The notes under the pieces were generated by a model, which saw only the letters and a list, made by a program, of their open reading frames with translations, had not been told where the DNA came from and did no database searches. Positions 20,040-64,000 of a stretch of 64,000 nt of DNA are shown here, piece by piece (position 1 is the first letter of the stretch; each line of letters opens with the position of its first letter). Location of the stretch: NCBI GenBank assembly GCA_951799425.1, contig OX637395.1:40229173-40293172 (forward strand), in the 5' to 3' direction. The stretch is from Ilex aquifolium. Its lineage: Eukaryota > Streptophyta > Magnoliopsida > Aquifoliales > Aquifoliaceae. The translations under genes and the position numbers were made by a program.

Positions 20040-20950
20040 GGATTGTATACCAAATTTTTGGGTATATTTACAACTTCAATGGAAATATTTACAACTTTCA
20101 TGGATTATTTACCACTTTTATGAGAATATTTACAACTTTAATGGATCAATTACCACTTCAATGGATCATTTACCACTTTTATAGAAAAATTTACAACTTC
20201 AATGGATCGTTTACGACAGTAATGAATTTTTTACGATATATAATACTCCATGATCGATCATTAAATATGATAGATCGATCATAGTTTAACGTAATATATG
20301 AGTAACCCAAGAAGATATACAACTTCAATGGATGATTTTACCACTTTTAAAGCAATATTTACAACTTTCATGGATTATTGACCACTTTTAATGGAATATT
20401 TACAAATTTAATAGATCAATACCACTTTTATGGGAATATTTACAACTTCAATTGATCATTTACTACTTTTATAGTAATATTTACAACTTCAATGGATATT
20501 TTACCACTTCAATGGATCATTTACCACTTTTATAGGAAATTTCCAACTTCAATGGACCGTTTATAACAGTAATGGATTTTTTACGATATTTAATACTCCA
20601 TGATCGATCGATCATATTTTTAACGTAATATATGAGTAACCGAAGAAGATATACAACTTCAATGGATCATTTTACCACTTTTAAAGAAATATTTACAACT
20701 TTCATGGATTATTGACCACTTTTAATGGAATATTTACAAATTTAATGGATCAATACCACTTTTATGTGAATATTTACAACTTCAATAGATCATTTACTAC
20801 TTTTATAGTAATATTTACAACTTCAATGGATAATTTAACACTTTAATGTATCATTTACCACTTTTATAGGCAAATTTCCAACTTGAATGGCTCATTTACC
20901 ACTTTTATGGGAATATTTACAACTAATGGGGGGAAGCATTTGCTAAACGA
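20040..20950. repeat. Higher-order tandem repeat (about 40-bp subunits in a 334-bp unit)
   Basis: Short subunits of the type TTTACCACTTTTATGGGAAT plus TTTACAACTTCAATGGATCA are arranged in a longer unit. The marker AACGTAATATATGAGTAACC recurs at 20288 and 20622, giving a period of 334 bp. Each long unit contains one ATGATCGATC-type block. The segment 18748-20039 between the last gene and this array shows no gene. Confidence 0.85.
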
Positions 20951-21910
20951 ATGATATTTTTTTACAATTTTTAATGGTCCATGATCGATCATATTATATG
21001 TTCGATCGATCATGGGACTCAGGTGTGTTCGTAAGTAATGGATATCCAATAATATATACAACTTTAATGGATCATTTACCATTTTTATGGGAATATTTAC
21101 AACTAATGGGGGGAAGCATTTACTAAAGGAATGATATTTTTTTACGATTTTTTATGGTCCATGATCGATCATATTATATGTTCGATCGATCATGACACTC
21201 ATGTGTGTTCGTAAGTAATGGATATCCAATAATATATACAACTTTAATGGATCATTTACCACTTTTATGGGAATATTTACAACTAATGGGGGGAAGCATT
21301 TACTAAAGGAATGGTATTTTTTTACGATTTTTGATGGTCCATGATCGATCATTGAATATGTTCGATCGATCTTGAAAGTCATGTGTGTTCGTAAGTAATG
21401 GATATCCAATAATATATACAAGTTTAATGAATCATTTACCACTTTTATGGGAATATTTACAACAAATGGCGGAATAATTTACTAAAGGAATGATATTTTT
21501 TTACAAGTTTTAATAGTCCATGATCGATTATATTATATGTTCGATCGATCATGACAGTGATGTGTGTTCGTAAGTAATGGATATCCAATAATATATACAA
21601 CTTTAATGGATCATTTACCATTTTTATGGGAATATTTACAACTAATGGGGAACCATTTACTAAAGGAATGGTATTTTTTTACCATTTTTGATGATCCATG
21701 ATCGATCAGATTAAATGTTCGATCGATCATGTAAGTCATGTGTGTTCGTAAGTAATGGATATCCAATAATATATACAACTTTAATGGATCATTTACCACT
21801 TTTATGGGAATATTTACAACCAAAGGGGGGAAGCATTTACTAAAGGAATGGTATTTTTTTACGATTTTTGATGGTCCATGATCGATCAATTTATAAGTTA
21901 GATCGATCAA
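20950..21910. repeat. 180-bp satellite-like tandem repeat
   Basis: The marker GGATATCCAATAATATATAC recurs at about 21040, 21220, 21400, 21579 and 21757, so the period is 178-180 bp over at least five copies. Each copy holds CATGATCGATCA and TTCGATCGATCATG palindromes. Because 180 is divisible by three, minus-strand frames stay open across units and give repeated peptides (LYILLDIHYLRTH) that I do not regard as genes. Confidence 0.92.
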
Positions 21911-33510: not shown

Positions 33511-36500
33511 TCAAGGTGTGTGTAGTGCCATATGTATGATCCTATCTCTGACAATGTTCTCGTCAGCAGTGACCAAGTTAATAGCGATTTCCGTTCGAAT
33601 GTCTTTACTCCTACCCTGCATTTAACATATTGAAACCATTAAACATAACACTTGAATTTTTTTTTTTTTTTATTTGTACGGTTACAGATATGCGGCAATG
33701 TCATCACGGAAGATTTATTGTTATTCACCTTTACTGTAAAACCTTGCCCCAAATGTGCTGATTGCATCATCTTCACAACGAAAATTCCGCAATCATTTCC
33801 ATTGTCTTGTACGGGCATCCATGCTGGTTTAACAACCTGGAACGTGCGCAAATTGTGTTTAAAATCGGCCGCCCTACTTGCAAGAATGTTGTCCAACACC
33901 TCAATCTACAAAACAAGTTTGGAATGTAATTGGCCAAATTAAAAAAATTTGTTGACAAGTATCATATGCTAAATGAAAACATTAAGTATCTTACAACTCT
34001 ATTCGCATTTGTGCGGCGAACATTGTTTCTTTTTGGATTTGGCAGAGGGTCGAGTATGAATGTTTGTTTCTCCTCTATATCCACAAAAAGTAGATACCAA
34101 TGTGATTTTTCATCGTTCATTGGGATATAAATCTACATACAGACAAACAATTATTCATAATATACACTAACTTACAAACAATTAGAAAACGAATTAAAGC
34201 AGTATAGACTACCTTTGTAGTTGATGAAAAATCAGGAAGTTGAAGGCGACTAAACTTCTTTTTTTTCTTAGTTACCCTTGCACCTTCACTGCGGGTGCGG
34301 CGGCGTGACGTTGGTTGTTCCTCCATTCCCATGGCTTGTTGTTGCATACAGTCACAAGCTTACACACATTAATTTGTTTGTCACATGACCCGAACTGTGT
34401 ATTGCATAATGCAACTAAAAATTGTGCATAACTGATGACAACATATACTTACAGAGAAGACTGTAGGTAAGTACCATCGTCCCCTTTGCGGAGCGATGCA
34501 GGCACACATATCAATTACCTAAAAACATTGTTTACACGATATTTTAGTTTCATTCTCATAACGTAACAACAATAACAGTCAAGAAATTAACTTTCACGAA
34601 CAATTCCACTAAGCCATTTGTTCGGGGCAAGGGTCTGTAACACCTCCCTCGTTCCTGCATCATGGTCACCAACTGATACCATTCGCTCACTACACGTAAA
34701 CAAAACCAATAAATTTTATGCACAGGTGCTGTATTGGAAAACGATAAAACTAGCACCCGTTACAAATAATGCCATGGACAAACATAAAAAGTACAACAGC
34801 ACATACTCAGCTGGCAAGTGTTTGTCAAATATGTAAAGGTAGATTGCGCGTTCGACATCATCATCGATATGGGTTATTCTTGGGAACACCACATCTGCCA
34901 TCTACAAAGCAAATTAGCGTATAATTCATTCAGCTTCACACTCACCTGAAAATACATGTTGATTTTTTAATAAACCATATCAATATAGCATACTTCATAT
35001 GGTTGGTCTCCCTCTACAGCATCTGGATCATCCAAATCAACCTAAAATATAAAGTTCGCAATTGTCAGTTCACGTCAACAAGTAAGCAGTAATGGATGTC
35101 GTTAAACAATGAACAACACATTTTAAGGTTGCACCAGTACAACGGAGTTAATACACACCTTCGTCAGATCAATTTCATCTTCTTCTTTATTTCCCCCCAT
35201 TTCATGTATGACATCCTTCGCATTCCCCGATTTATCAAGAAATTTTGACATCAGCTGTCCTATATCACCCAGTCGTTTATCCATCACAGACAAAGTAGTT
35301 GTGTAGTTTGATGCAAAAGTATCAAACTTTTTTTCCATGCGCTCTGCAAGAACCTCAAGTCTTCCAACTCTTATCCGCAAATCCTAAAAAAAACATACGT
35401 AATAATTCACAGTACAGTCAAAGATTTGCAGATAAATATTATGTTTATTATGAAAATTTATAGATTAGACATGGTATATGTACATACGTCAGCAACTGCT
35501 TGCTGGGATGCAGAACCAAGTGCATCATCAATGATCTCCTCCTCCACAAAAACATCCAACTACAACAAGTAAAACGAATGTAATCACATGCTTGTCAAAT
35601 ACTATGTAAGACTATACCATACAACAGTGCATATGGAAAAATTGTCTTCTCTGGAGAAAATTTATACCTCCTCCAGATGGAACCCGTCATAAGTGAAGAT
35701 ATCATTCATTCTTTTATTGACCTCGCTGTCACCCCACTCTACAATCCGGGGTACCTCACGAAAAACCATAGGAATGATGGTTTGCCCTCTCGGTGTAACT
35801 CGTTCAAGATAAAAGACCTGCATACAAAAGAAACTGAAGACAATAAAACACTATTTACCATTGGTATACAATGATTAGCACTCAAAAGTAGCATATTGTT
35901 ACGCTCTTTTTGGACTAATTATACTTTGATGGAGTTTAAATGATGATATTTTAGGTTCTAAAGTGAAGGAAAGTCCAAAGGCATCCAAGAAATACATTTG
36001 AGGGACAAATGCCGAATTAACGCAAGACCAAGGGAGCAATATCAGGAGAATGCAAAGAATGAAGGACAAAGTGTAATAAAAGCATTTGAAAAATCAGCAT
36101 GCATGCAACCACCGTCCATTTGCCCACTTGCCCACTTGCCCACTTGCCCACTTGCATTCTTAAGCTTATAAATAGGCTGCTCCTTCTGCATTTCAAGGGG
36201 GATCGGAGGGTGGAATTGGTGGAAAAACCAAGAGAGGAACTAAGAGTTAGGAGAGATTTTAGAAGAGTTTTTAGAGAGCAAATTTTCTTTCATCTTTTGT
36301 AGCTTCCATTTCAATTCATGTATTGAAGATTTTATGCTTATGTTCTTATGGTAAGAGTTCTTTCTTCTAATTGTCATTTCTTTATAGCTTTTATATTTAC
36401 TTGCTTGTATAAATATAATGGAAGGCTGAGCCTCCTCTTCTAATTGTCATTTCTTTATAGCTTTTATTATTTTCTTTTTATTATATCTTGGTTGTGAATT

Positions 36501-39500
36501 AAACACCAAGTAGTTATTGTTTTCTTTTATGTATTTTTATTTCTTGGTTGTGAATTAAACACCAAGTAGTTATTGTTTTCTTTTATGTATTTTTATCTCT
36601 TGGTTGTGAATTAAACACCAAGTATTTATTGCTTTCTTTTAATTTAAGTATTGTTTTCTTTTACTTCCATTGTTGGAGCTTCCTTCTTCCCCTTAGAGGA
36701 GTGAAACTCTTCCACTTTTCTAGAGCTTTACCAAAGCCGTGAAGGGTGGAACGTGATTCACTCATTCTTTGTCGAAGATCGGCTCCTTGTTTAGCTAATT
36801 TACTTTAAAGCATTTTACTTCTAGTGCTTGAGCATTTTACTTTGTAACACCTTTTTGGGGATGAGTACCATTCATCATTCTAGCTTTACCATAGCTATGA
36901 AGGGTGAGTAGTCCTCATTCACTCTTTGGGAAGGGATGATAGATATGTAAAAGATTAATCCGGACATTATGTTTGTGTATCACCTTTATGCTTAAATGTT
37001 CTATACTCCACTTGATTTTTGGGTGATTGAATGCACCTAGCAAAGTAAAGGTACTTTGTATAATCAACGGATCTTTCTATGATAAATGGATGACTCCTAC
37101 ATGGAAAGATCCATTGATTCAAGGCAAGTACCCTAACTAACTCTTCATGACAAACTTTCAATGTCCACAATTATTGCACTTCATTCCTATCTTCCGATTA
37201 ATTTGCCGTTGACACGGGAGTTAATTGAGTTATAAAACATAAACATAATGCACCGGATAATCAACTACATATTCTGATTCCCGAACCAAAGAGTGTTTGT
37301 TACATTTGATCATCTTATATTTTGTCTAGAAAAAATACCCATTGGAAAGAATCTTACATTCTATCCAAAACTTCCCACAACTTCAAAATCATAATATTTC
37401 CAGTTACAAGTTTTTCTCACTATTTACTTCAAAGAACACCAACCATAGTTCCCTGAGGATTCGACTCTGGACTCAAACCGGATTATTACTACAGCTTGAC
37501 CGCCTGCACTTGGGTGTACACATTTCGGATCAAGTCATACAACATACACATTAACAAACACGTCCTGTATAAGTGCTTTACCATCAGAACAACAAGACAA
37601 CCACCCAGTGATCCCCGCCCGGATGCTTGAAATTTTGTAATGCCTTCAAGGACTCCATCAAATACGAACTTGCACCAATTTGTATGTCGTAATGAAGGCA
37701 CATCAACAACAGAGTGTAATGAAGCAACACTTAGCGTTAGTCTCATTGTTGGACGAAGCATACAAGCAATAATATATAAAACAGACAGCCTTATAAAATC
37801 GTCAGAGACATCTGTGATTGAACTAAGGCGCTCCGACAAATGTTTCACAGATACCTCCGGTTGTCCGTTAAATATAGACGTACAAAGGTCCTGAATCCTG
37901 TCCTTTGTACCCGTGGTGACCACATTTGTCTCAGAAAATTGCAAACCTAGTATGTAGATCATGTGAGAGAGGGGGAAGTACCCAACATTCGAACATTGCG
38001 AGATTACTTACATCCCACAAGGAATAGTGTCCCCTCTTGTTTTATTTTTCCTGAAAATGCTCCCCTCTTTACTGTAAAGCCGGGGACAGTGCAGTTATTG
38101 CCCGTGTTTCATGGATTGGATGCAGAAAATCCGTATCTGCATATCAAAGACTTCGAAGAAGTGTGTGGAACATTTCAAGACAATTCTGAATTGACAAAAA
38201 TGAAATTGTTTTCTTTCTCTTTGAGGGATAAAGCCAAACAATGGTTACATTCTTTAAAATCTCTTTCAATCCCTAATTGGCAGGCTCTACAGAATGAATT
38301 TTTCAGAAAATTCTTTCCTCTGCACCGCACTAATACACTCAAAAGACAAATCATGAATTTTTCGGTCAAAGAAGGGGAAACTTTTTATCAAAGCTGGGAG
38401 AGATTCAAAGATCTTCTCCAATCTTGTCCACACCATGCTTTTGAAAATTGGACTTTGGCAGGTTTTTTCTATGATTCCTTGCCCACTAGGTTACGACAGT
38501 TTGTCGAAATGATGGCTCAAGGAGAGTTCATGGGAAAAAGTCCGGAGGAGGCATTCAATTTTTTTGATACCATATCTGACAGTTCTCAAATGTGGGACTC
38601 AGCATCTCCTACCACTGTAGAAGCCAAACCACCTACTTTCCAAGGGGGTAAGTATGTCTTGAGAGAAGATGATGATCTTAGAGCAAAAATGTCCACTTTG
38701 TCTCGAAAGCTTGAAGCTTTAGAGATGAAAAAGGTCCATCAAGTTGATGTTGTCCCTCCCACAGAACAAGTGTGTGGGATTTGTGCGCTAACAGGGCATC
38801 CTACTGGGGAATGCCCGACCATTCCGGCATTCAAAGAAGTTTTGTTGGAACAAACAAATGCCATTTCCAATTTCAACAAGCCTTACTCCAACCCATACTC
38901 TGAAACATACAATCCAGGGTGGCGGAACCACCCAAATTTCAGTTGGAGAAACACACAACCAACCCCCATGAATCAGCAACAAGGTCCACAACAACCACCT
39001 CAAGGACCTCCACAATATCCTCATCAACAAGGGCCACCACATCCACCTCAAGTACCTCCACAATATCCTCCATATCAACCACCACACAAAAGGAGCCTTG
39101 AAGATACATTGAATCAATTCATGCAAACCCAAATGAGCTATAACAATAGTTCTACTCAGGCTTTTATTGATTTCAAGGCCCAGACCACACAATCTTTTGA
39201 GGATCTCAAAGGCCACATTCAAAAGCTGACCCAGTCCATGAGCACACATGAGAAAGGAAAATTTCCTGCCCAACCAAAGCCTTCACAAGGCCAATTTCAG
39301 GTGGGAAATCCATCAACTATGGAAACTCCACAAGACCAAGCCAAAACTGTCACCACATTGAGAAGTGGCAAAAAGATTGACAAGTCCATCAGAAACATGC
39401 TAATTCCAGACCCAAAACCAGACTCAATTCCAGCCAACCCATTAAGTGAGCCAGAACTTGCAACAAAAAATGACTGTGATCCCATGATTGAACAAGAACC

Positions 39501-42500
39501 AGAGCCATCAAGGGAAGAAGAACCCTCGTGTTCTATTCCTGCTCCTTTCCCTCATAGACTCAAGAGCATACAGAAAGCAAACAATCAGTCTGAAATTTAC
39601 GAGCTTTTCAAGCAAGTAAAAATCAACATCCCACTTCTGGATGCAATCCAACAGGTTCCAGCTTATGCCAAGTTTCTAAAAGACTTGTGCACAATCAAAA
39701 GAAGCCAAAATGTTCAAAAAAGAGCCTTCCTCACAGAGCAAGCCAGTGCCCTACTTCAACACAAAATCCCTCCAAAGTGCGAAGATCCAGGGTGTCCCAC
39801 TGTGTCATGTGTCATTGGAAATTTCAAAATTGAGCAAGCATTGTTAGACCTTGGAGCTAGTGTCAACTTGCTTCCTTTCTCTGTCTACCAGCAGTTGGGT
39901 TTAGGTGAACTGAAACCCACTTGCACCACACTCCAATTGGCAGATAGATCTGTAAAAATTCCTAGGGGTATTGTTGAAGATGTACTTGTTCAAGTGGATA
40001 ATTTTGTCTTCCCTGTAGACTTCATTGTTCTAGATACTCATCCAGAAGTTCATTCAGAAACTCCAATTCCTGTCATTCTTGGTCGACCTTTTCTAGCAAC
40101 CTCCAATGCACTAATCAATTGCAGGAATGGTATTATGAAATTGACTTTTGGGGATATGACTCTCGAAATGAACGTCTTTGACATTGCAAAACACCCAAAA
40201 GAGTACGAGGAGGTAGGAGAAATAAATTCCATTGAGTCATTGATACAAGCACATCTGAATGACTCATTCTGTGAGGATCTTAGTGAATCAACTTTGTCAA
40301 AATCTGACTCATCTGACTCTCTGGAACAAAACTCCATTGAGTGCCCTACCTTCAATGTGGGGACATGGGCTCCTAAATTTGAAGAAATTTCATCAAGTGG
40401 TACAAAACCACTATCTTCAAGTGACAGGCCACCAAAGCCTGAACTGAAACCGCTCCCATCTGATCTCAAGTATGCATTTTTAGGTGAGGATAAATCTTAC
40501 CCAGTGGTAATTTCTTCAAAAATCACAGACTTGCAAGAAGTTCAATTAATTGAAGTTCTTAAAAGTCACAAAAGCACCATTGGGTGGACCATCGCTGATT
40601 TGAAAGGTATTAGCCCGTTAATTTGTAATCATGCCATATACCTTGAAGAGGACTCAAAACCCTCTCGTCAAATGCAGCGACGATTGAATCCTCACATGAA
40701 AGAGGTTGTGAGACTGGAAGTGCTCAAACTCCTGGATGCAGGGATAATTTTTCCTATCTCCGATAGCAAATGGGTTAGTCCAACCCAAGTTGTACCAAAG
40801 AAATCTGGAGTCACAGTAGTCAAAAATGATGCAAATGAACTCGTGCCAACACGAGTTGTCACAGGATGGCGAATGTGCATTGACTATCGAAAACTCAATC
40901 TGGTGACTAGAAAAGACCATTTTCCTCTTCCCTTCCTTGACCAAGTCCTCGAGAGAATAGCAGGCCATGAATTTTACTGTTTCCTGGATGGGTATTCCGG
41001 ATACAATCAAATTGAGATAGCTCTGAATGACCAAGAAAAGACCACATTCACATGTCCATTTGGCACCTTTGCATTCAAAAGGATGCCATTTGGACTTTGT
41101 AACGCTCCTGCAACATTTCAAAGATGTATGCTGAGCTTGTTCAGTGACATGGTCGAAAAATTTTTGGAAATCTTCATGGATGATTTCTCGGTATATGGTG
41201 ACTCATTTGATTTGTGTCTAGCTAACCTAGAAAAAGTTTTGATGAGATGCAAAGAGGCAAATCTGGTGCTTAACTGGGAGAAATGTCATTTCATGGTGAA
41301 TCAAGGCATTGTCTTGGGTCACATTGTGTCGTCTGAAGGCATGAAAGTTGATAAAGCAAAAATTGATTTGATAAGGAATCTTCCTGCTCCTAGGGTTGTG
41401 AAGGATGTTCGATCATTCTTAGGACATGCAGGATTCTACAGAAGGTTCATAAAAGACTTCAGCACCATAGCAAAACCTATGTGTCATCTTTTGAGTCAGG
41501 ATGTCATTTTCGACTGGAATGAAGCGTGCCAAAAATCCTTTGACAAACTCAAAGGCATGTTAATTTCTGCCCCAATAATGCAACCTCCTGACTGGACTCT
41601 ACCCTTTGAATTGATGTGTGATGCTAGTGACTATGTTGTAGGTGCTGTTTTGGGACAAAGAAAAGATAAGAAGGCACATGTGATTTACTATGCAAGTAAA
41701 ACTTTAAATGATGCCCAAATGAATTACTCAACAACTGAAAAGGAATTACTTGCTGTAGTATTTGCATTGGAAAAATTTCGATCTTATCTTGTTGGTTCTT
41801 CTGTTACTGTATTTACTGACCATGCAGCACTGAAATTTTTGCTTACAAAAAAAGATGCCAAACCAAGGCTCTTGAGATGGATCCTCTTGCTCCAAAAATT
41901 TGATTTAGTCATTAAGGACAAAAAGGGTGTGGAAAATGTGGTGGCAGATCATCTGTCGAGATTAACTTATGAATTTCATGAGGATGGACTGCCAATCAAT
42001 GAAAAATTCCCCGATGAACAACTATTCAGGATTGATGAGACCCCATGGTATGCTGATATTGCTAATTTCCTTGCTACCGGAACACTTCCTCCATTTTTCA
42101 CTCCCATGGACAAAAAGAAGTTTCTGAGGGAGGTCCGCAATTTCTTTTGGGAAGATCCCTACGTATTCAAGTACTGTAAGGATCAGATCATAAGACGTTG
42201 CATCCCCGCTCAGGAAAGTAGACAGGTAATAACATTTTGTCATTCAGAAGCATGTGGTGGTCATTTTTCATCTCGAAAAACCGCTGCAAAAATCTTGCAG
42301 TGTGGATTTTACTGGCCCACACTTTTCAAAGATGTCCATGCTTTTTGCGTAACTTGCGATAGATGTCAAAGGTTGGGAAACATTTCAAAAAGAAACATGA
42401 TGCCCTTAAACCCAATTTTGGTGATCGAAATTTTTGACTGTTGGGGTATCGATTTTATGGGACCATTTCCCCCCTCCTTTGGCTATCTATACATTTTAGT

Positions 42501-45500
42501 AGCCGTAGACTATGTATCCAAATGGGTTGAAGCAATTCCATGCCGAAATAATGATCATCAAACAGTGATCAAGTTTTTAAAAGAAAATATTTTATCTCGG
42601 TTTGGAATTCCAAAATCCATTATAAGTGATGGGGGTGCTCATTTTTGCAATCGTCCCTTCTGGAATTTAATGAAAAAATACTTGATTTTTCACAAAATTG
42701 CAACCCCTTATCATCCACAGACCAATGGACAAGCTGAGTTAGCTAATCGGGAGATCAAATTAATTTTGGAAAAAACGGTGAACCCAGATCGCAAAGATTG
42801 GTCATTAAGACTAACTGATGCGCTCTGGGCATACCGAACTGCTTTTAAAACAATTTTGGGCATGTCTCCCTATCGATTAGTCTATGGAAAACCATGTCAC
42901 TTGCCTGTGGAATTGGAACATAGGGCATACTGGGCTATTAAAGCAATGAATTTTGACTTAGACAAGGCTGGACTGTCACGGAAGCTTCAGATTAATGAAT
43001 TGGAGGAATTGAGAAATGAAGCATATGAAAATGCTAAGATTGCAAAAACCAGGATGAAAATTTTTCATGACAAGAACATAGTGCGAAAATCTTTTGAACC
43101 TGATCAAAAGGTTCTACTTTTCAATTCGAGACTTCGCCTATTTCCTGGTAAGTTGAAATCAAGATGGACTGGACCATACATTGTTAAAAAGGTATTTGAA
43201 CATGGGGCAGTGGAAGTGGAGAACCCATCAAACGATAACATTTTTACCGTCAATGGTCAGCGATTAAAACCCTTTGTGGAGAATTTTGTCCAAAATGTGG
43301 AGACCATTTTTTTTATGGATCCAGAAAGTATCTCCGGAAATCACTCCGGAGATTACGCTTACCGACACAAAAAAGGGTCGGGTCAATCAGACACCCGACA
43401 CGATGGACTGCCTTTATAAGGCCCCCATCGTTTTTTTTTTTTCTTTTTTCTTTTCCCCACCGCCTTTACTCTTTTCTTTTCTTTTTCTTCTTCTTTTTCT
43501 TCTCTTTTCTTCTTCTTCTCCACTGCATCTGGTCTTCTCTACCACGATCCAACCCATAACAGTACCATGTCTGCATTTTTCGATGACCCTATCCTCCTTC
43601 TCATGATCTACATTTGTTTGTATTATTTACTTATGGCTGTTCTTCTTCGGGCCGCACTGATGATCAAGGGTTTTTGTCCCAATGAAAACCCAGACCACCC
43701 CAAAAATGCTTAATCTCTGTTTTTTTTTGGTATAGGTCATCGGCGATTGAACAGATCTCCACAGTTAACTGCGTATTCAAGCTCTACAAACCGAAAAACT
43801 CGAAACATTGGGGACAATGTTCAGTCTAGGTTGGGGGGTGAGATCTACAGTTTACAGTAGTTGATCTGCAGTTTACAGTAGTTGATCTGCGCAGGTTGAA
43901 CCCGTAAAATTTTCTGTAAATTTTTTTGTTTTTATTGTTGTATCTGTTCAGATTATGTACCTTGTATTAATGATAATATCTGTGGGTCAGTTTTGATCGT
44001 CTTTGTGACTGGAAGACGTAAAAGAACCAGATAATGGGTCATAGAGTAGCAATCATGGATGTAAATCTTTTTTGGTTTAGTCTAGGAGTCCTACGTACTT
44101 TTCCATCTGATGTACATACCATGATCATGAGAAAAGCAAGATTAGTAAGGAAGGCTGAAATCAAAGAAAAACAAGCGAAACCCCTCTGTGGCCGAAGCAG
44201 TTATTCTAAACGTCGTCGTGCTACACGACTTGGTGCCTGTAAACAGTGTGGCAGATACTTTCATGAGAAAAGATACAACAAATGTTCTGAACCAATTTCC
44301 GGTCGAGCAACCGATCGATTAAACTGGATAGTGAATGGGCTGAGTAAGGATTACCCTGATACGCCATGCTATTCCGGTACTGTGCTTAACCGATTTGTGA
44401 GAGAGGAAGTTGGGAGAGTTACTGGTTGTCCATTTTACACAGATACGGAGGGGGAATCGGATTGACCTCTGTGGAAAAGTGTACTGAGGTTGGGAATGAA
44501 AGCTGAAGGTCCGAGTCTGTAAAAATTTTTGATTCGACGTTCGAACGTTACAACACGTTTGAACGTTTTTGCTAAAATCCTTCTACAATAGTGTACAGTT
44601 GCTTTTATTTATTAATGTTATTTTTAATGCATGTCACTTTCTTTTGTTGTATAATTTTGTTGTTCCTAGTTTCAGATATCGGTGCATGGGTCAAAGCTCA
44701 AGTGCGAGGTGTTCTCTTACCCTACTCATTTTTATTACTATGCACCATTATTGCGCCTGCTGCTATTATTGCGCCTGCCGACACTGCCGAAAGTAAAGTT
44801 AGAAAAAAAAAAAAAGGGGGGCCTCCCATTCTTTTTCTTCTTCTTTTTTCTTTTCTTATGCCAACTCCTGCCGACACTTTTTTAAAAAAAAAAAAAAAAG
44901 TCTGAGGAATGCCTTTATTAGGCCTTCCACCTTTTTCTTTTTCTTCCACCATCACCGGTGTTGGTTTCCCCCTTTCTCTTTCCCTTCTCTTCTTCTCTTT
45001 CTTCTTCTTCTCTTCTTCTTCGTCGTCGTTCTTTCTGTTCTCTGTAAAAACAACTCACCCCCTGTAAATCCATGACCATATACGCCGACGATCCAGTCTT
45101 TTGTTTAATAATTTGTCTTATATGTTTGTATGTGTACCTGGGTGCTCTTTGTGTTCTCACACTTAGGATGAGGAGTTTCCAGAGAAACCCAGATATTCCT
45201 TGAGTTGAGTAATTGTTGTATTTTGTTTGTAGGTTTCGGCAGATGAACATATCTGTACCTTACAACCTTATCTCCACTAGCCCACTAGTGCTAGTGTTGT
45301 AAGTATTGCTTGTTTGTAATTTCATTTATATATATATTTGAAATTTGATATCTACAGCTTGTGATTCTCATGGCTATTTGTCTTTATAAAATTCCTTGTG
45401 AATTTGCTATGCCCTCCAATGACTATGTTGTAATTGCTGTTAGAGTAAGATCTGATAATTTGCCAAATAATCCTCCTCAATCCTATGTATTCTGGGTTTA

Positions 45501-48500
45501 TTCCTTCTTCGTTAATTTGTTTGTTTCATCCTAAATCTTCTTCCTTCCGCTTGTATTTTGGTATACTTTCTCTAGTTTCATATTTGTAATTTTAGTTTTA
45601 GATCTGAAAAAAAAAAAAAAAAAAAAAAAAAAATTTATTTTTTCTGGATCGCGTTTTTTTTAGTATTTGTACCTGTATTTCATGATCACATCGGATGCAG
45701 CTTCAACTGTCTTTGTGACTGGCAGACGTTAAAGAACCAGATAGAATGTCTTTAGTCTTAGCAAGCATGGATCCTAAACTTTTTTGGTTTAGTCTAGGAG
45801 TTCTATGCATTTTCCCATCTGATGTGCATGCTGTGATAATGAGAAAAGCAAGGGATGTGAGAAAAATTGAGATCCGAGAGAAACAACAACAACCATTGTG
45901 TGGCAGAAGCAATTTTGCTAAACGTCGTCGTTCCAAACGACTGGGTGCTTGTTACCATTGTGGCAGGATATTTCATATGAAAAAACATAATCAGTGTTCT
46001 GAACCAATTTCGGGTCGTGCAACCGATCGATTAAACTGGATAGTGTATGGGCTGAGTAAGGATTATCCTGACACGCCATCTTATGCCAGTCCGGGACTTA
46101 CAAGTTATGTGCGACAAGAAGTTGGAAGGGTCACTGATAATGACATAGATCCAAGCGATGACTCGGATTAGATTTTGACTATAAAGACAAAGCTGTGGAA
46201 AAATGTGTTTTGGAATGAAGGTTAAGGGTCTGAACTCTTTTGTAAAATATTTTTGTACAAAGTCTGGTTGTTGAAATAAAAATATGGGCCGAGTAAGGAA
46301 CGTCCCGAACTACCAACTAACAGTGTAGGTAGGGATTTGATCCTGAGACGCCATAAATTTCCAAGTTCAATTTGTGCATTTTATCTTCTTTCAATTTTCA
46401 TAGATAAATGAGTATGTGGGCTGAGTAAGGAATGTCCTAAAATGCCAACCTGTAGTGTGGGTAGGGACTTATCCTGAGACGTCATAGTTTTTCAAGTTTA
46501 ATTGGTGCATCTAGTCTTCTTTCAATTTTCATAGATAAATGAGTATGTTTATAATTTTGAATTTTATTTCTTTTTAAAAAAAAAAAAAAAAAAAACTCAC
46601 TTCTTTGAAAAATGGTATTTTCTCTATGCTTAAATGTCAAATGTATATTGCTATTTGTTATTCTTAAGGTACAGAATGACCAGACTCAAAAATAGAATCG
46701 GTATATAACCGACATTCCATGAAAAACCTGACATTACCAGTAGAGATGATAAAGAATACCATGATAAGTTTTGAGCCTTACCATACTTTTGAGAGATAAT
46801 TAACATTTATTCAAGTAAGGTCTTTCATTCTCTATTTTTGAATAATCTCATTAAATTTGCTTTGATTGACGCAACTAAGGTAATCTGTTGACATATCCCC
46901 AAGAAATCTGTTCATACGACACATACATGTTCACATACTTGAGAAAGGATTTTAGGCCATCTTTGATTTGATATTGAGCCTTAGCCATTTTTTCTGCAAA
47001 ATTATTTCCCTAGTCAGCCATGTTTGAGCCCTCAATGTATGATTTCTTCTTTGATAAACCCAAATTTTTACCAAGCCACAAGAAAACATACTGGACACAC
47101 CATTGCTATCTAATTTTCTTGCACACTCTTATTAATCAATATGACACAGAAATGCAAAGAAATGGGAAAACTCTGGAGATTACTTTTCGATGATAAGGAG
47201 AATCAATGGGAACAAATGAAAAAAAAAAAAAAAATCATTTCTGGGCAAAATGTCGAAAAGCTAGAAAGAAGTGTGCTACATTACAGAATGAAAAGATAGC
47301 TTTTGAAAACCTCTGACGTCATTTCATTAGCCACTGACCTCTGGCCACGCTACAACCTATGAAAAGCCCTAATTGATCTCAAGTCTGTTACATGTGTGTG
47401 TTGTTAATCAAAATTGGGGTATGGTAAATAGTATTTCTTTAAATTGCATCAATATTCTTTCATGAGATTATGCCAAACATGATTAGTTTGTTTCCTTAAA
47501 CTTCACTCCCTTCCTAAATTGTGCATGTGATTTTTCGATTGGCCACCTTCTGATCACATGCCCCTTGAGAGACAAGTCACTATAATCAGAGTGAACTTTT
47601 GCTGAGAGCATTCTACGAGAGGTTTGTGAAATCGAAGCTATCCATGGAAGGTAGTAAAATGGAGTGTTTGTTATATAACAATTCTTGTTGCTAGAATGAT
47701 CATTCTTACTACATAGGGAATTTCAAATACCAATATAACAAGTGTTTATTTTTGCATATATTACGTACCAATGACAGAGAAGTGTTTTATTCTGTTAAAA
47801 AAAAAAAAAAAAAAATTCGGCGTCTCAGCTATCATGGTGCTAATGCATATACACATTTTTTCAAATGGAGTTTGTAGGTAGCTTCACTGAAAACCTTCAC
47901 GAGACAAAACTCGTCCACTAGGAATCACCTAGGGGTTTAACGGCTTATTGCATATGCTAAATGCAATCGTGTTATCTACGAAAGTGATTTTGTTATGCTG
48001 TTATTTATTACTAGGGACTAGTAATGTTTAGGTTGGGGGGTGTGATTAGCACTCAAAAGTAGCATATTGTTACGCTCTTTTTGGACTAATTATACTTTGA
48101 TGGAGTTTAAATGATGATATTTTAGGTTCTAAAGTGAAGGAAAGTCCAAAGGCATCCAAGAAATACATTTGAGGGACAAATGCCGAATTAACGCAAGACC
48201 AAGGGAGCAATATCAGGAGAATACAAAGAATGAAGGACAAAGTGTAATAAAAGCATTTGAAAAATCAGCATGCATGCAACCACCGTCCATTTGCCCACTT
48301 GCCCACTTGCCCACTTGCATTCTTAAGCTTATAAATAGGCTGCTCCTTCTGCATTTCAAGGGGGATCGGAGGGTGGAATTGGTGGAAAAACCAAGAGAGG
48401 AACTAAGAGTTAGGAGAGATTTTAGAAGAGTTTTTAGAGAGCAAATTTTCTTTCATCTTTTGTAGCTTCCATTTCAATTCATGTATTGAAGATTTTATGC

Positions 48501-50344
48501 TTATGTTCTTATGGTAAGAGTTCTTTCTTCTAATTGTCATTTCTTTATAGCTTTTATATTTACTTGCTTGTATAAATATAATGGAAGGCTGAGCCTCCTC
48601 TTCTAATTGTCATTTCTTTATAGCTTTTATTATTTTCTTTTTATTATATCTTGGTTGTGAATTAAACACCAAGTAGTTATTGTTTTCTTTTATGTATTTT
48701 TATTTCTTGGTTGTGAATTAAACACCAAGTAGTTATTGTTTTCTTTTATGTATTTTTATCTCTTGGTTGTGAATTAAACACCAAGTATTTATTGCTTTCT
48801 TTTAATTTAAGTATTGTTTTCTTTTACTTCCATTGTTGGAGCTTCCTTCTTCCCCTTAGAGGAGTGAAACTCTTCCACTTTTCTAGAGCTTTACCAAAGC
48901 CGTGAAGGGTGGAACGTGATTCACTCATTCTTTGTCGAAGATCGGCTCCTTGTTTAGCTAATTTACTTTAAAGCATTTTACTTCTAGTGCTTGAGCATTT
49001 TACTTTGTAACACCTTTTTGGGGATGAGTACCATTCATCATTCTAGCTTTACCATAGCTATGAAGGGTGAGTAGTCCTCATTCACTCTTTGGGAAGGGAT
49101 GATAGATATGTAAAAGATTAATCCGGACATTATGTTTGTGTATCACCTTTATGCTTAAATGTTCTATACTCCACTTGATTTTTGGGTGATTGAATGCACC
49201 TAGCAAAGTAAAGGTACTTTGTATAATCAACGGATCTTTCTATGATAAATGGATGACTCCTACATGGAAAGATCCATTGATTCAAGGCAAGTACCATAAC
49301 TAACTCTTCATGACAAACTTTCAATGTCCACAATTATTGCACTTCATTCCTATCTTCCGATTAATTTGCCGTTGACACGGGAGTTAATTGAGTTATAAAA
49401 CATAAACATAATGCACCGGATAATCAACTACATATTCTGATTCCCGAACCAAAGAGTGTTTGTTACATTTGATCATCTTATATTTTGTCTAGAAAAAATA
49501 CCCATTGGAAAGAATCTTACATTCTATCCAAAACTTCCCACAACTTCAAAATCATAATATTTCCAGTTACAAGTTTTTCTCACTATTTACTTCAAAGAAC
49601 ACCAACCATAGTTCCCTGAGGATTCGACTCTGGACTCAAACCGGATTATTACTACAGCTTGACCGCCTGCACTTGGGTGTACACATTTCGGATCAAGTCA
49701 TACAACATACACATTAACAAACACGTCCTGTATAAGTGCTTTACCATCAGAACAACAAGACAACCACCCAGTGATCCCCGCCCGGATGCTTGAAATTTTG
49801 TAATGCCTTCAAGGACTCCATCAAATACGAACTTGCACCAATTTGTATGTCGTAATGAAGGCACATCAACAACAGAGTGTAATGAAGCAACACTTAGCGT
49901 TAGTCTCATTGTTGGACGAAGCATACAAGCAATAATATATAAAACAGACAGCCTTATAAAATCGTCAGAGGCATCTGTGATTGAACTAAGGCGCTCCGAC
50001 AAATGTTTCACAGATACCTCCGGTTGTCCGTTAAATATAGACGTACAAAGGTCCTGAATCCTGTCCTTTGTACCCGTGGTGACCACATTTGTCTCAGAAA
50101 ATTGCAAACCTAGTATGTAGGTTACATCTTGTGGGCTGAACTTCGCCCATTTGCCATACAAATTGAAAGCACAACGCTGGGGATCAAATCGTCCAGCCAA
50201 CCATGCACACAAATCATGCCTGATATATGTGCATGCTATGTTCAGCAATCCTCCCAAGCCAATTTCGATGATGGCTTGTTTTTGTGCGGCATTTATATTT
50301 GATGCGAATTTTTTGAGTCTTTTTGGTGAACATCTGGTCCCCAC
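33511..50344 (-). CDS. Second Ulp1-like protease gene, split by an intronic LTR retrotransposon
   Basis: The first recognisable exon is 50344-49745 ([52 protein letters not shown]). Next come 35817-35668 ([23 protein letters not shown]), 35559-35488, 35383-35159 (coiled-coil-like [16 protein letters not shown]), 35041-34994 and 34901-34807, then several exons to a stop at 33513-33511. The Ulp1 part reads [27 protein letters not shown] and [17 protein letters not shown], so His, Asp, Gln and Cys are kept. It is a diverged paralogue of the plus-strand gene at 23.0-27.4 kb. An upstream minus-strand exon near 50560-50470 (RPKKKQVV, GKRQRRR; NLS-like) may belong to it, but the join lacks a clear acceptor. 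The 13.8-kb retroelement lies 40 bp inside intron 1. No HMG box was found. The exons look intact; expression through the insertion is unknown. Confidence 0.65.
35867..35871 (+). other. Target site duplication TACAA, left copy
   Basis: TACAA immediately precedes the TG of the 5' LTR and recurs immediately after the CA of the 3' LTR at 49701-49705. A third copy follows the 5' LTR at 37538-37542. Confidence 0.92.
35872..37537 (+). repeat. 5' LTR
   Basis: The LTR is 1666 bp, TGATTAGCAC to ATCAAGTCA. It contains four TGCCCACT-type 8-bp units (about 36120), a TATAAATAG box at 36177-36185, and three 56-bp tandem units from 36487 that each carry CTTGGTTGTGAATTAAACAC followed by CAAG, a potential hairpin. 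The first 14 or so nt after a normal LTR should be a primer-binding site; here they are target-site sequence. Confidence 0.93.
37538..37957 (+). other. Copied target duplication plus right flank between 5' LTR and gag
   Basis: This segment matches 49701-50120 with one difference seen (A/G at about 37808). It begins with TACAA and holds intron 1 and part of the first exon of the minus-strand Ulp1-like gene (minus-strand peptide [15 protein letters not shown], where the flank has ITDASDDF). The match stops at 37957 (TATGTAG), two bases before the gag start region. It replaces the primer-binding site and leader that a gypsy element needs here. Confidence 0.92.
37963..43419 (+). CDS. Gag-pol polyprotein
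   Basis: One uninterrupted 1818-aa frame. Gag occupies about 1-300 ([45 protein letters not shown]), with a CCHC knuckle C-x2-C-x4-H-x4-C at 271-284 and a Pro/Gln-rich linker. The protease has [12 protein letters not shown] near 627. RT has [11 protein letters not shown] and [11 protein letters not shown] (near 1071), RNase H has [14 protein letters not shown] and [18 protein letters not shown], and the integrase has a zinc domain [17 protein letters not shown] followed by a DDE core ([27 protein letters not shown]). The C-terminus reads [18 protein letters not shown]. No stop or frameshift is present, so coding function looks intact. The ATG at 37963 lies two codons inside the flank junction, so the native start may have been lost upstream. 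The stop codon overlaps the TATA-like box of the downstream cassette. Confidence 0.93.
43408..43535 (+). promoter_or_regulatory. Cassette A: TATA-like box and pyrimidine-rich leader
   Basis: GCCTTTATAAGGCC spans the pol stop codon (43417-43419). It is followed by about 100 nt that is almost only C and T. The same arrangement precedes cassette B at 44907. A TATA box with a CT-rich leader suggests an internal promoter for the small ORFs. No transcript data are available. Confidence 0.45.
43567..43713 (+). CDS. Cassette A: small single-span membrane protein
   Basis: A 48-aa ORF starts at ATG 43567 (context GTACCATG). The N-terminus MSAFFDDP is followed by a hydrophobic stretch of about 24 residues ([19 protein letters not shown]), then RAALMIKGF and a short polar tail with ENPDHP. 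The parallel ORF in cassette B (45072-45203) has the same plan (DDP, membrane span, basic residue, NPD-x-P), which argues for selection on the protein. I do not recognise a family. Its size and single span recall small plant-virus membrane movement proteins, but no sequence link can be claimed. No ribosome-entry signal is visible. Confidence 0.55.
   Translation: MSAFFDDPILLLMIYICLYYLLMAVLLRAALMIKGFCPNENPDHPKNA
43805..43842 (+). other. Internal hairpin plus polypurine tract
   Basis: A perfect 6-bp hairpin, ACATTG-GGGA-CAATGT (43805-43820), precedes TAGGTTGGGGGGTG (43827-43840). The same G-rich tract lies directly before the 3' LTR, also preceded by a hairpin. It lies between the two ORFs of cassette A. 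Confidence 0.7.
44034..44465 (+). CDS. Cassette A: basic Cys/His-finger protein
   Basis: The 143-aa ORF contains [18 protein letters not shown], then [18 protein letters not shown], then [20 protein letters not shown] with a strongly basic patch immediately before C-x2-C-x4-H-x6-C ([10 protein letters not shown]). It continues [20 protein letters not shown] and KDYPDTP, with an acidic end (DTEGESD). The paralogue at 45746-46171 keeps all of these blocks. The order hydrophobic N-terminal block, arginine-rich patch, zinc-finger-like cysteines resembles the small cysteine-rich nucleic-acid-binding proteins of carlaviruses and relatives (Carla_C4 family). It also differs from a gag CCHC knuckle by two extra residues before the last Cys. 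Likely an RNA/DNA-binding accessory protein; function unproven. Confidence 0.7.
   Translation: MGHRVAIMDVNLFWFSLGVLRTFPSDVHTMIMRKARLVRKAEIKEKQAKPLCGRSSYSKRRRATRLGACKQCGRYFHEKRYNKCSEPISGRATDRLNWIVNGLSKDYPDTPCYSGTVLNRFVREEVGRVTGCPFYTDTEGESD
44895..45025 (+). promoter_or_regulatory. Cassette B: TATA-like box and pyrimidine-rich leader
   Basis: GGAATGCCTTTATTAGGCCT at about 44905-44925 matches the pol-end context of cassette A (GGACTGCCTTTATAAGGCCC). It is followed by a CT-rich leader. The duplication therefore began a few codons before the pol stop. The TATAAG core is changed to TATTAG here. Confidence 0.4.
45072..45203 (+). CDS. Cassette B: small single-span membrane protein
   Basis: A 43-aa ORF starts at ATG 45072 (AATCCATG). 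MTIYADDP is followed by a hydrophobic span of about 23 residues rich in Cys and Leu ([19 protein letters not shown]), then [15 protein letters not shown]. It is collinear with the 48-aa ORF of cassette A: the DDP, the span and the NPD-x-P end are kept while the rest diverges. Too short for family assignment. Confidence 0.52.
   Translation: MTIYADDPVFCLIICLICLYVYLGALCVLTLRMRSFQRNPDIP
45746..46171 (+). CDS. Cassette B: basic Cys/His-finger protein
   Basis: The 141-aa ORF is roughly two-thirds identical to the 44034-44465 product, including [40 protein letters not shown], the C-x2-C-x4-H-x6-C finger ([10 protein letters not shown]), [16 protein letters not shown] and [10 protein letters not shown]. 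Both end in an acidic tail (DPSDDSD here). Both are preceded, about 10 nt before the ATG, by a shared block GTCTTTGTGACTGG..AGACGT..AAAGAACCAGATA. Two open copies of the same protein at this divergence suggest that both are or were used. Confidence 0.7.
   Translation: MSLVLASMDPKLFWFSLGVLCIFPSDVHAVIMRKARDVRKIEIREKQQQPLCGRSNFAKRRRSKRLGACYHCGRIFHMKKHNQCSEPISGRATDRLNWIVYGLSKDYPDTPSYASPGLTSYVRQEVGRVTDNDIDPSDDSD
46286..46548 (+). repeat. Decayed partial duplicates of the finger-ORF 3' region
   Basis: Two degenerate units about 132-142 bp apart each start GGGCYGAGTAAGGA and contain ATCCTGAGACG. They resemble the DNA encoding [10 protein letters not shown] in the finger ORFs. The second half of each unit repeats TCTTCTTTCAATTTTCATAG. 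They are noncoding. From 46549 to 48006 I see only AT-rich sequence and A-runs. Confidence 0.55.
48007..48042 (+). other. Terminal hairpin and polypurine tract
   Basis: The inverted repeat ATTACTAG-GGA-CTAGTAAT (48007-48025) is followed by TTTAGGTTGGGGGGTG ending at 48042, immediately before the TG of the 3' LTR. This is the expected plus-strand primer site. Confidence 0.8.
48043..49700 (+). repeat. 3' LTR
   Basis: The LTR is 1658 bp and nearly identical to the 5' LTR, with three instead of four 8-bp TGCCCACT-type units and about two base differences seen. It ends ATCAAGTCA and is followed by TACAA (49701-49705) and then by the intron and first exon of the minus-strand Ulp1-like gene. Confidence 0.93.
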
Positions 50345-60059: not shown

Positions 60060-60809
60060 GTGAATGCTGTTCTGGGTATTTTTGACTGTCCTTGGACATG
60101 TTTGAGCTAATTGAGACAGATCAGTGGCTTCTTGAGGGGTCTGGCTTATATATTGGTGCATTTTTTTCGTGACGCAAATGTTGTGGCTTATAGTCTTCAT
60201 GGGCATGCAGTAAAGAGTAGGAATTCGGGTTATTTTCCAATGGGTTTGACATTGCCTTGTGATGTTACATTGGATCTGTCATCTGATCAACAGAGTCTAC
60301 CTGTGTTGCAAAAAAGAAAGAGTGTGGTCTTCGATGATAAGGGGTAATAAGATCTGCTGATGGGGAGCTTTTTGTCTTGAATGATTAAGTGTTGATTTGT
60401 TTGAAACAAGGGAAAAATATAAAAAGCCTTGTGATGTTACATTGGATCTGTCATCTGATCAACAGAGTCTCCCTGTGTTGCAAAAAAGAAAGAGTCTGGT
60501 CTTCGATGATAAGGGGTAATAAGATCTGCTGATGGGGAGCTTTTTGTCTTGAATGATTAAGTGTTGATTTGTTTGAAACAAGGGAAAAATATAAAAAGCT
60601 CTTTATTGTTGATATGTGCTTATTGATTTGGACTGTGCTGGGGAGTTTTGCTGAAACTTTAGACTTTGCTGTTGTGTATTTTTGGCTTTGCATTGTTAGT
60701 TTTGGCTTATACTGCTTATGTATGGGCGTCTGTGCCTTTTCCTTTGTTTCTTGTAAATATTTTTGCATTATGAATAAATATAATTCCCTTTTGATAAAAA
60801 AAAAAAAAG
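60060..60809 (+). mobile_element. LINE 3' fragment with poly(A)
   Basis: The plus strand encodes VHFFRDANVVAYSLHGHAVK (LINE RNase H C-terminus), followed by a 3' UTR and an A-run at 60798-60809. Within it, a 172-bp unit starting CCTTGTGATGTTACATTGGA is tandemly duplicated (60255 and 60427). Confidence 0.6.
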
Positions 60810-63229: not shown

Positions 63230-64000
63230 TGATCGGTCATATTTACTTTCGATCGATCAAAATTCCACTTCCCATTCAACTTCTACCTCAGTAACTCAAA
63301 TGATCGATCAGGCATCCCTTGTATGATCGATCAGATGTCCCCAGTCAATATGAATTCTGATCTGTAACATTTTTGATCGATCAATATAAATATTTGATCG
63401 ATCATATATCACAGTATTAAGATCTGCAACCAACTGATCGATCAAATACATATATCTGATCGATCAGATGTCCCCAGTTCTTCAGAGTTCTTATCTTCAA
63501 CAACTGCAACTATTTGATCGATCATAATAAATATATGATCGATCAGATGTCCCCAGTACTTATGAGTTATGGTCTGTAACATTTTGATCGATCAATATAA
63601 ATATTTGATCGATCATATATCACAGTATTAAGATCTGCAACCAACTGATCGATCAAATACATATATCTGATCGATCAGATGTCCCCAGTTCTTCAGAGTT
63701 CTTATCTTCAACAACTGCAACTATTTGATCGATCATAATAAATATATGATCGATCAGATGTCCCCAGTACTTATGAGTTATGGTCTGTAACATTTTGATC
63801 GATCAATATAAATATTTGATCGATCATATATCACAGTATTAAGATCTGCAACCAACTGATCGATCAAATACATATATCTGATCGATCAGATATCCCCAGT
63901 TCTTCAGAGTTCTTATCTTCAACAACTGCAACTATTTGATCGATCATAATAAATATATGATCGATCAGATGTCCCCAGTACTTATGAGTTATGGTCTGTA
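63230..64000. repeat. 211-bp TGATCGATCA tandem array, right edge
   Basis: The marker GGTCTGTAACATTTTGATCG recurs at about 63361 (one-base variant), 63571, 63782 and 63993, giving a 211-212-bp period to the end of the window. Each unit holds six TGATCGATCA-type palindromes spaced 20-55 bp apart, with separators such as GATGTCCCCAGTTCTTCAGA. Copies are nearly identical. Between 62800 and 63229 there are short repeats of GATTCACAATGGAA and no gene. Confidence 0.92.

Follow-up and report, generated by a model that had tools for sequence, protein, structure and literature searches.

A retrotransposon in a window of 64,000 nucleotides from Ilex aquifolium (the whole stretch of DNA that was analysed) carries, between pol and its 3' LTR, a cassette that is a tandem duplication of one module, and the larger ORF of each module is, judging from its sequence, homologous to the nucleic-acid-binding protein (NABP, cysteine-rich protein or p10) that plant RNA viruses encode. 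With slightly better than even confidence, we favour the explanation that this is a Ty3/gypsy element with two old tandem betaflexivirus-NABP-like genes, which would be used against small-RNA silencing. The chances appear to us evenly balanced that a silencing-suppressor gene was exchanged between plus-strand RNA viruses and a lineage of plant LTR retrotransposons, and that this lineage duplicated the gene and retains both copies, each paired with a membrane protein, as a cassette for movement or against silencing.

A duplicated module in a young Ty3/gypsy-type element

The element at 35872-50156 is a young LTR retrotransposon of the Ty3/gypsy type, with LTRs of the form TG..CA, a target-site duplication (TSD), a polypurine tract (PPT) and the domain order protease, reverse transcriptase (RT), RNase H, integrase. 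Its LTRs show 99.47% identity over 2086 aligned columns, with 3 mismatches and one 8-nt gap. The framework of the element is as follows:

35867..35871, no strand: left target-site duplication TACAA, adjoining the 5' LTR start and the same as 50157-50161
35872..37957, + strand: 5' LTR, without the last 36 nt of the 3' LTR, matched to 48043-50120
37951..43419, + strand: gag-pol open frame (Gag, protease, RT, RNase H, integrase), from Pfam and ORF reading
48031..48040, + strand: polypurine-tract-like GGTTGGGGGG, two bases before the 3' LTR start at 48043
48043..50156, + strand: 3' LTR, 2114 nt, TG...CA, from the LTR comparison
50157..50161, no strand: right target-site duplication TACAA, directly after the ...CA of the LTR

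The gag-pol frame is open from 37951, its first ATG being at 38200, and Pfam comparison of 38200-43416 identified Retrotrans_gag, Asp_protease_2, RVT_1, RT_RNaseH, RT_RNaseH_2, Integrase_H2C2 and rve, with no chromodomain match at E 0.01. The element may be Athila-like; no Athila env-like Pfam family matched the four cassette ORFs or five further ORFs between 43295 and 47190. This particular insertion is damaged at its 5' end, where the LTR lacks its final 36 nt, and the primer binding site seems to be deleted, because the 5' LTR has lost its end and, by reading, runs straight into gag coding sequence.

The original prediction of a duplicated accessory module downstream of pol was borne out, and the two modules, A and B, can be aligned from the TATA-like block to at least 44520 (A) and 46240 (B), near the ends of the compared stretches. 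Their components are:

43409..43423, + strand: module A TATA-like block TGCCTTTATAAGGCC, whose TAA is also the pol stop codon
43567..43713, + strand: module A small ORF, 48 aa, one hydrophobic span (maximum 19-residue hydropathy 2.75)
43999..44033, + strand: module A conserved leader block before NABP-like gene A, 33 of 35 nt the same as in 45709-45743
44055..44465, + strand: NABP-like gene A, 136 aa from the conserved ATG (ORF ATG 44034); Pfam Viral_NABP 2.5e-10, Carla_C4 7.4e-06
44910..44924, + strand: module B TATA-like block TGCCTTTATTAGGCC, from a sequence match
45072..45203, + strand: module B small ORF, 43 aa, one hydrophobic span (maximum 19-residue hydropathy 2.82)
45709..45743, + strand: module B conserved leader block before NABP-like gene B, pair of 43999-44033
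45767..46171, + strand: NABP-like gene B, 134 aa from the conserved ATG (ORF ATG 45746); Pfam Viral_NABP 3.4e-12, Carla_C4 1.8e-05

All four predicted ORFs were found, the small ones as listed and the larger ones spanning 44034-44465 (143 aa) and 45746-46171 (141 aa). Likewise, the TATA-like block, the CT-rich leader and both ORFs align between modules, and the spacers between the ORFs differ in sequence and length, as had been proposed. The TATA-like block has just two matches in the window (TGCCTTTATAAGGCC at 43409 and TGCCTTTATTAGGCC at 44910). A possible RNA hairpin within the leader block of 35 nt was discarded as weak, with copy A alone folding (z -1.27; 17 of 200 shuffles as good) and copy B not doing so. 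The larger ORF more probably begins at its second ATG (44055 and 45767), since conservation begins only there, and starts at 44034 and 45746 were rejected, as they add seven codons without conservation.

Viral relatives of the larger ORF

Both copies of the larger protein exceed the curated cut-offs of two Pfam families of viral proteins, Viral_NABP (PF05515; 41.1 and 47.2 bits against a cut-off of 23) and Carla_C4 (PF01623). In the alignment of its family (A1), 12 of 12 members match Viral_NABP and Carla_C4 at E 0.01 or better, these members being proteins from a database that favours open frames. Relatives elsewhere were retrieved by profile and protein database searches: among the 27 proteins listed, from 5.8 billion sequences, the family profile found the RNA-binding protein of Grapevine virus A (GVA) at E 2.3e-7 and the NABP of Carrot vitivirus 1 at E 0.014. 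The comparison of A1 with the GVA protein in hhalign covers 72 columns with 42% identity and a probability of 98, and pairwise BLASTP gave 44% (copy B) and 43% (copy A) over 63 columns, the match starting at the basic GRSTFAKRRR motif, spanning the finger and reaching the DRL..G..ETP region. In both window copies KRRR lies at residue 52, followed by CX2CX4HX6C at residue 62, and the proteins are basic (pI 9.3 and 9.7). The original description of a basic Cys/His-finger ORF thus holds for the finger and the basic character, and missed the homology to the plant RNA virus protein.

With vitivirus p10 (Grapevine virus A, PF05515) the element's protein has in common the GRSTFAKRRR motif, a C-C-H-C finger, the ISG..DRL..G..ETP region and a tail that looks acidic by eye. 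It differs in having 37 more residues before the basic motif and in finger spacing (CX2CX4HX6C versus CXCX4HX4C in GVA), and its gene is carried, twice, by a retrotransposon. Carlavirus cysteine-rich proteins (CRPs; PF01623) are alike in the basic motif adjoining a Cys finger, although their finger, given as CX2CX12CX4C in the available part of the source (PMC9559581), occurs in none of the 29 rows of the element family, window copies included and partial rows counted, with no carlavirus protein among the rows. As far as the excerpts of the sources go, the P10 of Grapevine virus A is listed among silencing suppressors, with siRNA as its target, binding of dsRNA and sequestration of siRNA are described for vitivirus P10 (PMC3712444), and the carlavirus CRP is described as a silencing suppressor (PMC9559581). 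The Viral_NABP and Carla_C4 matches, the GVA profile match and the listing of P10 as a suppressor together mean that a homologue of a betaflexivirus suppressor gene is present in the element as two diverged copies; we call it a homologue and not a viral gene because it sits between pol and the 3' LTR of a retrotransposon.

Outside the window, scans of IMG/VR (for A1, A5, A2, a piece of pol and the leader block) and of GTDB contigs, both using few short patterns, gave no confirmed relative, and tblastn against plasmids gave no relative.

Age of the duplication and selection on its ORFs

The NABP-like copies share 75.6% DNA identity, versus 99.5% between the LTRs, and in a tree rooted by choice on two vitivirus proteins and with poor resolution of the rows near copy B, copy A falls within a clade of 7 (support 99/100) that excludes copy B. 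Both observations indicate that the duplication is older than this insertion. The copies diverged under purifying selection: as predicted, dN/dS between the larger ORFs is well below 1 (NG86 omega 0.29, bootstrap interval 0.18-0.42), a single pairwise value that is not divisible between the copies. Their conservation exceeds chance, with 93 of 134 residues identical between the proteins, whereas neutral simulation, run 2000 times with 98 substitutions as in the real pair, gave a mean of 71.9 identical residues and a maximum of 85, and only 3.55% of simulated large ORFs remained stop-free.

The small ORF of module A also resembles its counterpart in B at the sequence level, with 14 identical columns and a tblastn match of A to copy B in the window at E 0.002. 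Of 20000 neutral simulations 3739 were free of stops, and none of these equalled the similarity score of the real pair, the observed alignment being optimised and gapped and the simulated ones neither. The dN/dS interval is 0.17-1.47 (248 usable of 300 bootstraps) and includes 1. The proposed selection on the cassette proteins stands for the larger protein and is only suggested for the membrane ORF. Sequence searches found no homologue of the small ORF, although proteins so short often go unpredicted; Pfam gave no family for A and, for B, DUF3481 (0.0083) and DUF4519 (1.1), both below cut-off, and neither ORF had an accepted match to a movement protein family of the double or triple gene block.

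Possible roles of the cassette

Small RNAs hold plant transposons down, and to our knowledge few of these transposons counter silencing with a protein of their own. In the favoured explanation, the gene would have crossed between a retroelement lineage and an RNA virus, the virus being the probable donor. Each copy lies downstream of a TATA-like block, a CT-rich leader and a small membrane-span ORF of its own. Expression may proceed from the module's own promoter or via a spliced RNA; the basic motif and the C-C-H-C finger would bind RNA or siRNA, and the two diverged copies may provide dose or different targets. By analogy with the viral proteins, the NABP-like protein would most likely weaken small-RNA silencing of the element, although being homologous to a suppressor is no proof of such activity. 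One case of an own anti-silencing protein is that of Vandal DNA transposons, according to the portion available of PMC11728184. If true, a retrotransposon would be armed with a viral counter-defence by which it may escape silencing, RNA viruses and LTR retrotransposons would have linked gene pools, and counter-defence by retroelements would become directly testable.

Extra ORFs in retrotransposons are already known, and Athila env-like, Retand, Grande and Tekay elements likewise carry an extra gene beside gag-pol. The env-like ORFs of plant LTR retrotransposons are described as sense and located between pol and the 3' LTR (PMC7264820, in part). In the available parts of the sources, extra ORFs of the four groups are env-like, transposase-like or of unknown kind, some being antisense or 5' of gag, and none is named an NABP. 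Orchid Ty3/gypsy elements with an AlkB m6A demethylase domain also have an RNA-acting domain found in betaflexiviruses (PMC9289625, in part), although of another protein family. A literature search of titles and abstract beginnings, covering few subscription journals, contained no report of an NABP gene in a retrotransposon among the matches listed. A systematic survey of extra ORFs counted, in the section available, those of at least 250 codons (PMC6317226), a minimum that the cassette ORFs would escape; if our explanation is true, this suggests that small extra ORFs slip past surveys counting long ones only.

The same protein features would also suit a nuclear or packaging nucleic-acid-binding factor, acting in transcription, RNA export, reverse transcription or encapsidation like retroviral accessory proteins and with no silencing suppression: the protein is basic and combines KRRR with a C-C-H-C finger, and similar nuclear signals occur in some carlavirus CRPs (PMC9559581, in part). 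We regard this as rather unlikely, as the nearest named relative comes from a virus whose P10 is, in the excerpt cited above, a listed silencing suppressor. The joint duplication of both ORFs would fit a cell-to-cell movement module, in which a small membrane protein and a small RNA-binding protein work as in the double gene block of plant viruses; yet the membrane ORFs have neither an accepted Pfam match nor a homologue found, and selection on them is not proven (0.17-1.47), which leaves this role distinctly improbable.

RNA virus sequences do enter plant genomes (PMC3136472, in part) and this insertion is damaged, so the cassette might be a passive passenger, a virus fragment caught by the element and free of selection, but an omega of 0.29 with an interval below 1, both copies being open, makes this very improbable, as does the match of all 12 A1 members to the viral family, even if database proteins are biased to open frames. 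We give least credence to convergence, by which a cellular protein of the zinc-ribbon or zinc-knuckle type, with a basic stretch, came to resemble a viral NABP. It would agree with the weak hits to ribosomal protein eL43/L37Ae among solved structures (best E 0.0047) and with one source that names a relative L37AE/L43A; nevertheless, the similarity to the GVA protein extends past the finger and Viral_NABP scores far better than eL43, and convergence on ribosomal eL43 was rejected because the viral NABP match is both stronger and longer.

The retrotransposon insertion and its duplicated module

Self-comparison of the window revealed two long direct repeats of 99.47% identity, with three mismatches and one 8-nt gap; the 3' repeat extends 36 nt beyond the aligned part, ends with ...TTTGCCA at 50156 and has TACAA directly behind it, a pentamer that also precedes the 5' repeat. 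Since the direct repeats are bordered on both sides by matching TACAA, 35872-50156 is a single LTR retrotransposon insertion with TG...CA ends and a 5-bp target duplication, and it is young, because its LTRs are nearly identical. Its relevant features are:

35872-37957, 5' LTR
43409, TATA-like block, module A
43567-43713, membrane ORF, module A (48 aa)
43999-44033, 35-nt block, module A
44055-44465, NABP-like gene, copy A (from the second ATG)
44910, TATA-like block, module B
45072-45203, membrane ORF, module B (43 aa)
45709-45743, 35-nt block, module B
45767-46171, NABP-like gene, copy B (from the second ATG)
48043-50120, 3' LTR, aligned part

The gag-pol frame contains gag, protease, RT, RNase H and integrase domains, which is the Ty3/gypsy order, and gave no match to a chromodomain; the element is putatively Athila-like, as originally predicted. 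A polypurine-tract-like motif (GGTTGGGGGG) adjoins the 3' LTR on its 5' side. The 5' LTR lacks its last 36 nt and continues straight into gag coding sequence, where the frame is open from 37951 and has its first ATG only at 38200. From this shortening and direct junction, we read the insertion as a copy from which the terminal part of the 5' LTR, the leader and the start of gag have probably been deleted. Both LTRs contain tandem repeats with a unit of ca. 56 nt (36422-36697 and 48585-48860). Self-comparison also detected tandem repeats elsewhere in the window, at 20067-21909 (offset ca. 180 nt in 20879-21909), 60254-60603 (172 nt) and 63322-64000 (212 nt). To the left of the element, the minus strand of 33639-34120 contains fragments of a Ulp1-type protease gene (PF02902, 1e-06 for 33962-34120), which are perhaps part of another decayed transposon.

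All four ORFs of the original prediction were found, and modules A and B, proposed to be tandem copies, could indeed be aligned from the TATA-like block to the 3' side of the larger ORF, which is about as far as the stretches compared reach. They share the order TATA-like block, CT-rich leader, membrane ORF, spacer, 35-nt block, larger ORF and a short stretch 3' of it. The TATA-like block has no third match within the window, and that of copy A overlaps the pol stop codon. The wide divergence claimed for the spacers was seen between the membrane ORF and the larger ORF, where AG dinucleotides behind pyrimidine runs, at corresponding spots in A and B, are candidate splice acceptors as judged by eye. 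The 35-nt block is identical at 33 of 35 positions, above the coding-region average, and is immediately preceded by diverged sequence; a translation signal, a small-RNA site or gene conversion may cause this conservation.

Module A also contains, at 43810-43838, GGGGACAATG followed by a second polypurine-tract-like motif, GGTTGGGGGG, resembling that at 48031 with the following bases included (76% over 37 nt). Degraded repeats (68% and 81%) of a 10-residue NABP-like coding segment occur at 46279-46315 and 46411-46447, inside a tandem duplication of ca. 131 nt, and are possible remains of further copies.

Homology of the larger ORF to viral NABPs

The larger ORF matched Pfam Viral_NABP (copy A, E 2.5e-10, 41.1 bits; copy B, 3.4e-12, 47.2 bits; cut-off 23) and Carla_C4 (7.4e-06 and 1.8e-05, respectively, both above cut-off). 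Using copy B as a query, we retrieved 10 relatives among 12 candidates from jgi and ena, with 64-89% identity. The resulting 12-row alignment, A1, has 58 invariant columns, none of them before the second ATG, and each of its 12 members reaches E 0.01 or better with both families.

A profile search with A1 yielded 27 proteins at E ≤1 from 577 candidates, including the RNA-binding proteins of Grapevine virus A (GVA; 2.3e-7) and Carrot vitivirus 1 (0.014). Identity with the GVA protein was 42% over 72 columns with hhalign against this protein alone, and 44% (copy B) and 43% (copy A) over 63 columns with BLASTP. As judged from these alignments, the match is more than a common zinc motif, because similarity continues beyond the finger. 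The best non-viral alternative, ribosomal eL43, gave a weak match over ca. 50 residues (best E 0.0047). At the sequence level, these comparisons demonstrate that the larger ORF is homologous to viral NABP.

Copies A and B contain the finger CX2CX4HX6C, and the looser CX1-2CX4HX4-6C also accommodates the GVA protein; the carlavirus finger, CX2CX12CX4C in excerpts of PMC9559581, was present in none of the 29 rows. By its finger, the element protein therefore resembles vitivirus p10 more than the carlavirus protein, the latter being represented by its published pattern. Unlike the GVA protein, it has 37 extra residues ahead of the basic motif, which fall inside the stretch matching the Pfam profile.

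The A1 profile also retrieved a second group, P0015-P0021, with 41-46% identity; with P0023-P0025 and P0027, this group may represent another retroelement or endogenous virus lineage carrying the same gene. Some members are apparently frame-shifted: P0024, P0025 and P0027 show, by reading, a shift within the finger, and look like decayed genomic copies.

Selection and age of the duplication

Coding DNA of the two copies is 75.6% identical, whereas the LTRs share 99.5%, which makes the duplication far older than the insertion. For the larger ORF (69% protein identity), NG86 yielded dN 0.208, dS 0.722 and omega 0.29 (0.18-0.42 in 300 bootstraps), a single pairwise value not divisible between A and B; LWL85 gave omega 0.39, and YN00 gave 0.09 with a dS of 2.1, too high for trust. 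Likewise, A and B have 93 of 134 residues in common, against a maximum of 85 in 2000 neutral simulations. These results demonstrate the duplication and selection on the larger ORF. Selection had been proposed for both proteins; for the membrane ORF it is only suggestive, with an omega of 0.48 and an interval of 0.17-1.47, which includes 1.

In a tree of 23 of the 29 rows (P0014, P0021, P0023, P0024, P0025 and P0027, short, truncated or frame-shifted, were excluded beforehand), copy A belongs to a clade of seven with support 99/100, and copy B lies outside; its nearest row is P0001 (89%), but the branching of the rows around it lacks support. P0009, which is of the A type, and the shortened relative P0014 share the source jgi and a longest contig of 2941 bases, a hint that they may form a pair on one contig.

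Possible roles of the module

Plant LTR elements are well known to carry extra ORFs, either env-like, transposase-like or of unknown kind, according to excerpts of PMC7264820, PMC11963269 and PMC11728184. The extra ORF of sunflower Tekay, of another kind than the NABP-like gene, has a suggested link with silencing (PMC11728184, in part), and an AlkB domain, which betaflexiviruses also have, is present in orchid elements (passages of PMC9289625). A systematic survey set 250 codons as the minimum length of the extra ORFs that it counted (extract of PMC6317226). Among the matches listed from the open-access literature, there was no report of an NABP in a retrotransposon; retrotransposons with an extra gene are known and, as far as this search reached, the NABP-like kind of gene is new there.

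GVA P10 is listed among silencing suppressors acting on siRNA (excerpt of PMC3712444), and PMC9559581 (in part) ascribes silencing suppression to the carlavirus CRP. In the simplest reading, the element protein would work as these viral suppressors do, against silencing of the element: an NABP-kind protein would be made from the module promoter or from spliced RNA and would bind RNA or small RNA, which would weaken silencing. We infer expression, RNA binding and suppression, and likewise the direction of gene transfer, probably from virus to element. Alternatively, the protein might be a packaging or regulatory RNA-binding factor, or both ORFs might act together in movement, as the double gene block of viruses does (excerpts of PMC7595835).

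The membrane ORF is likely real. Its copies share 14 columns, including DDP near the start and NPD.P near the end, and both show strong hydropathy. We found no accepted Pfam family for them, and the protein search yielded no candidate homologue. In local tblastn one retrieves the other (E 0.002), and the score of their alignment, which unlike the simulated ones was optimised, was matched by none of 3739 stop-free neutral simulations.
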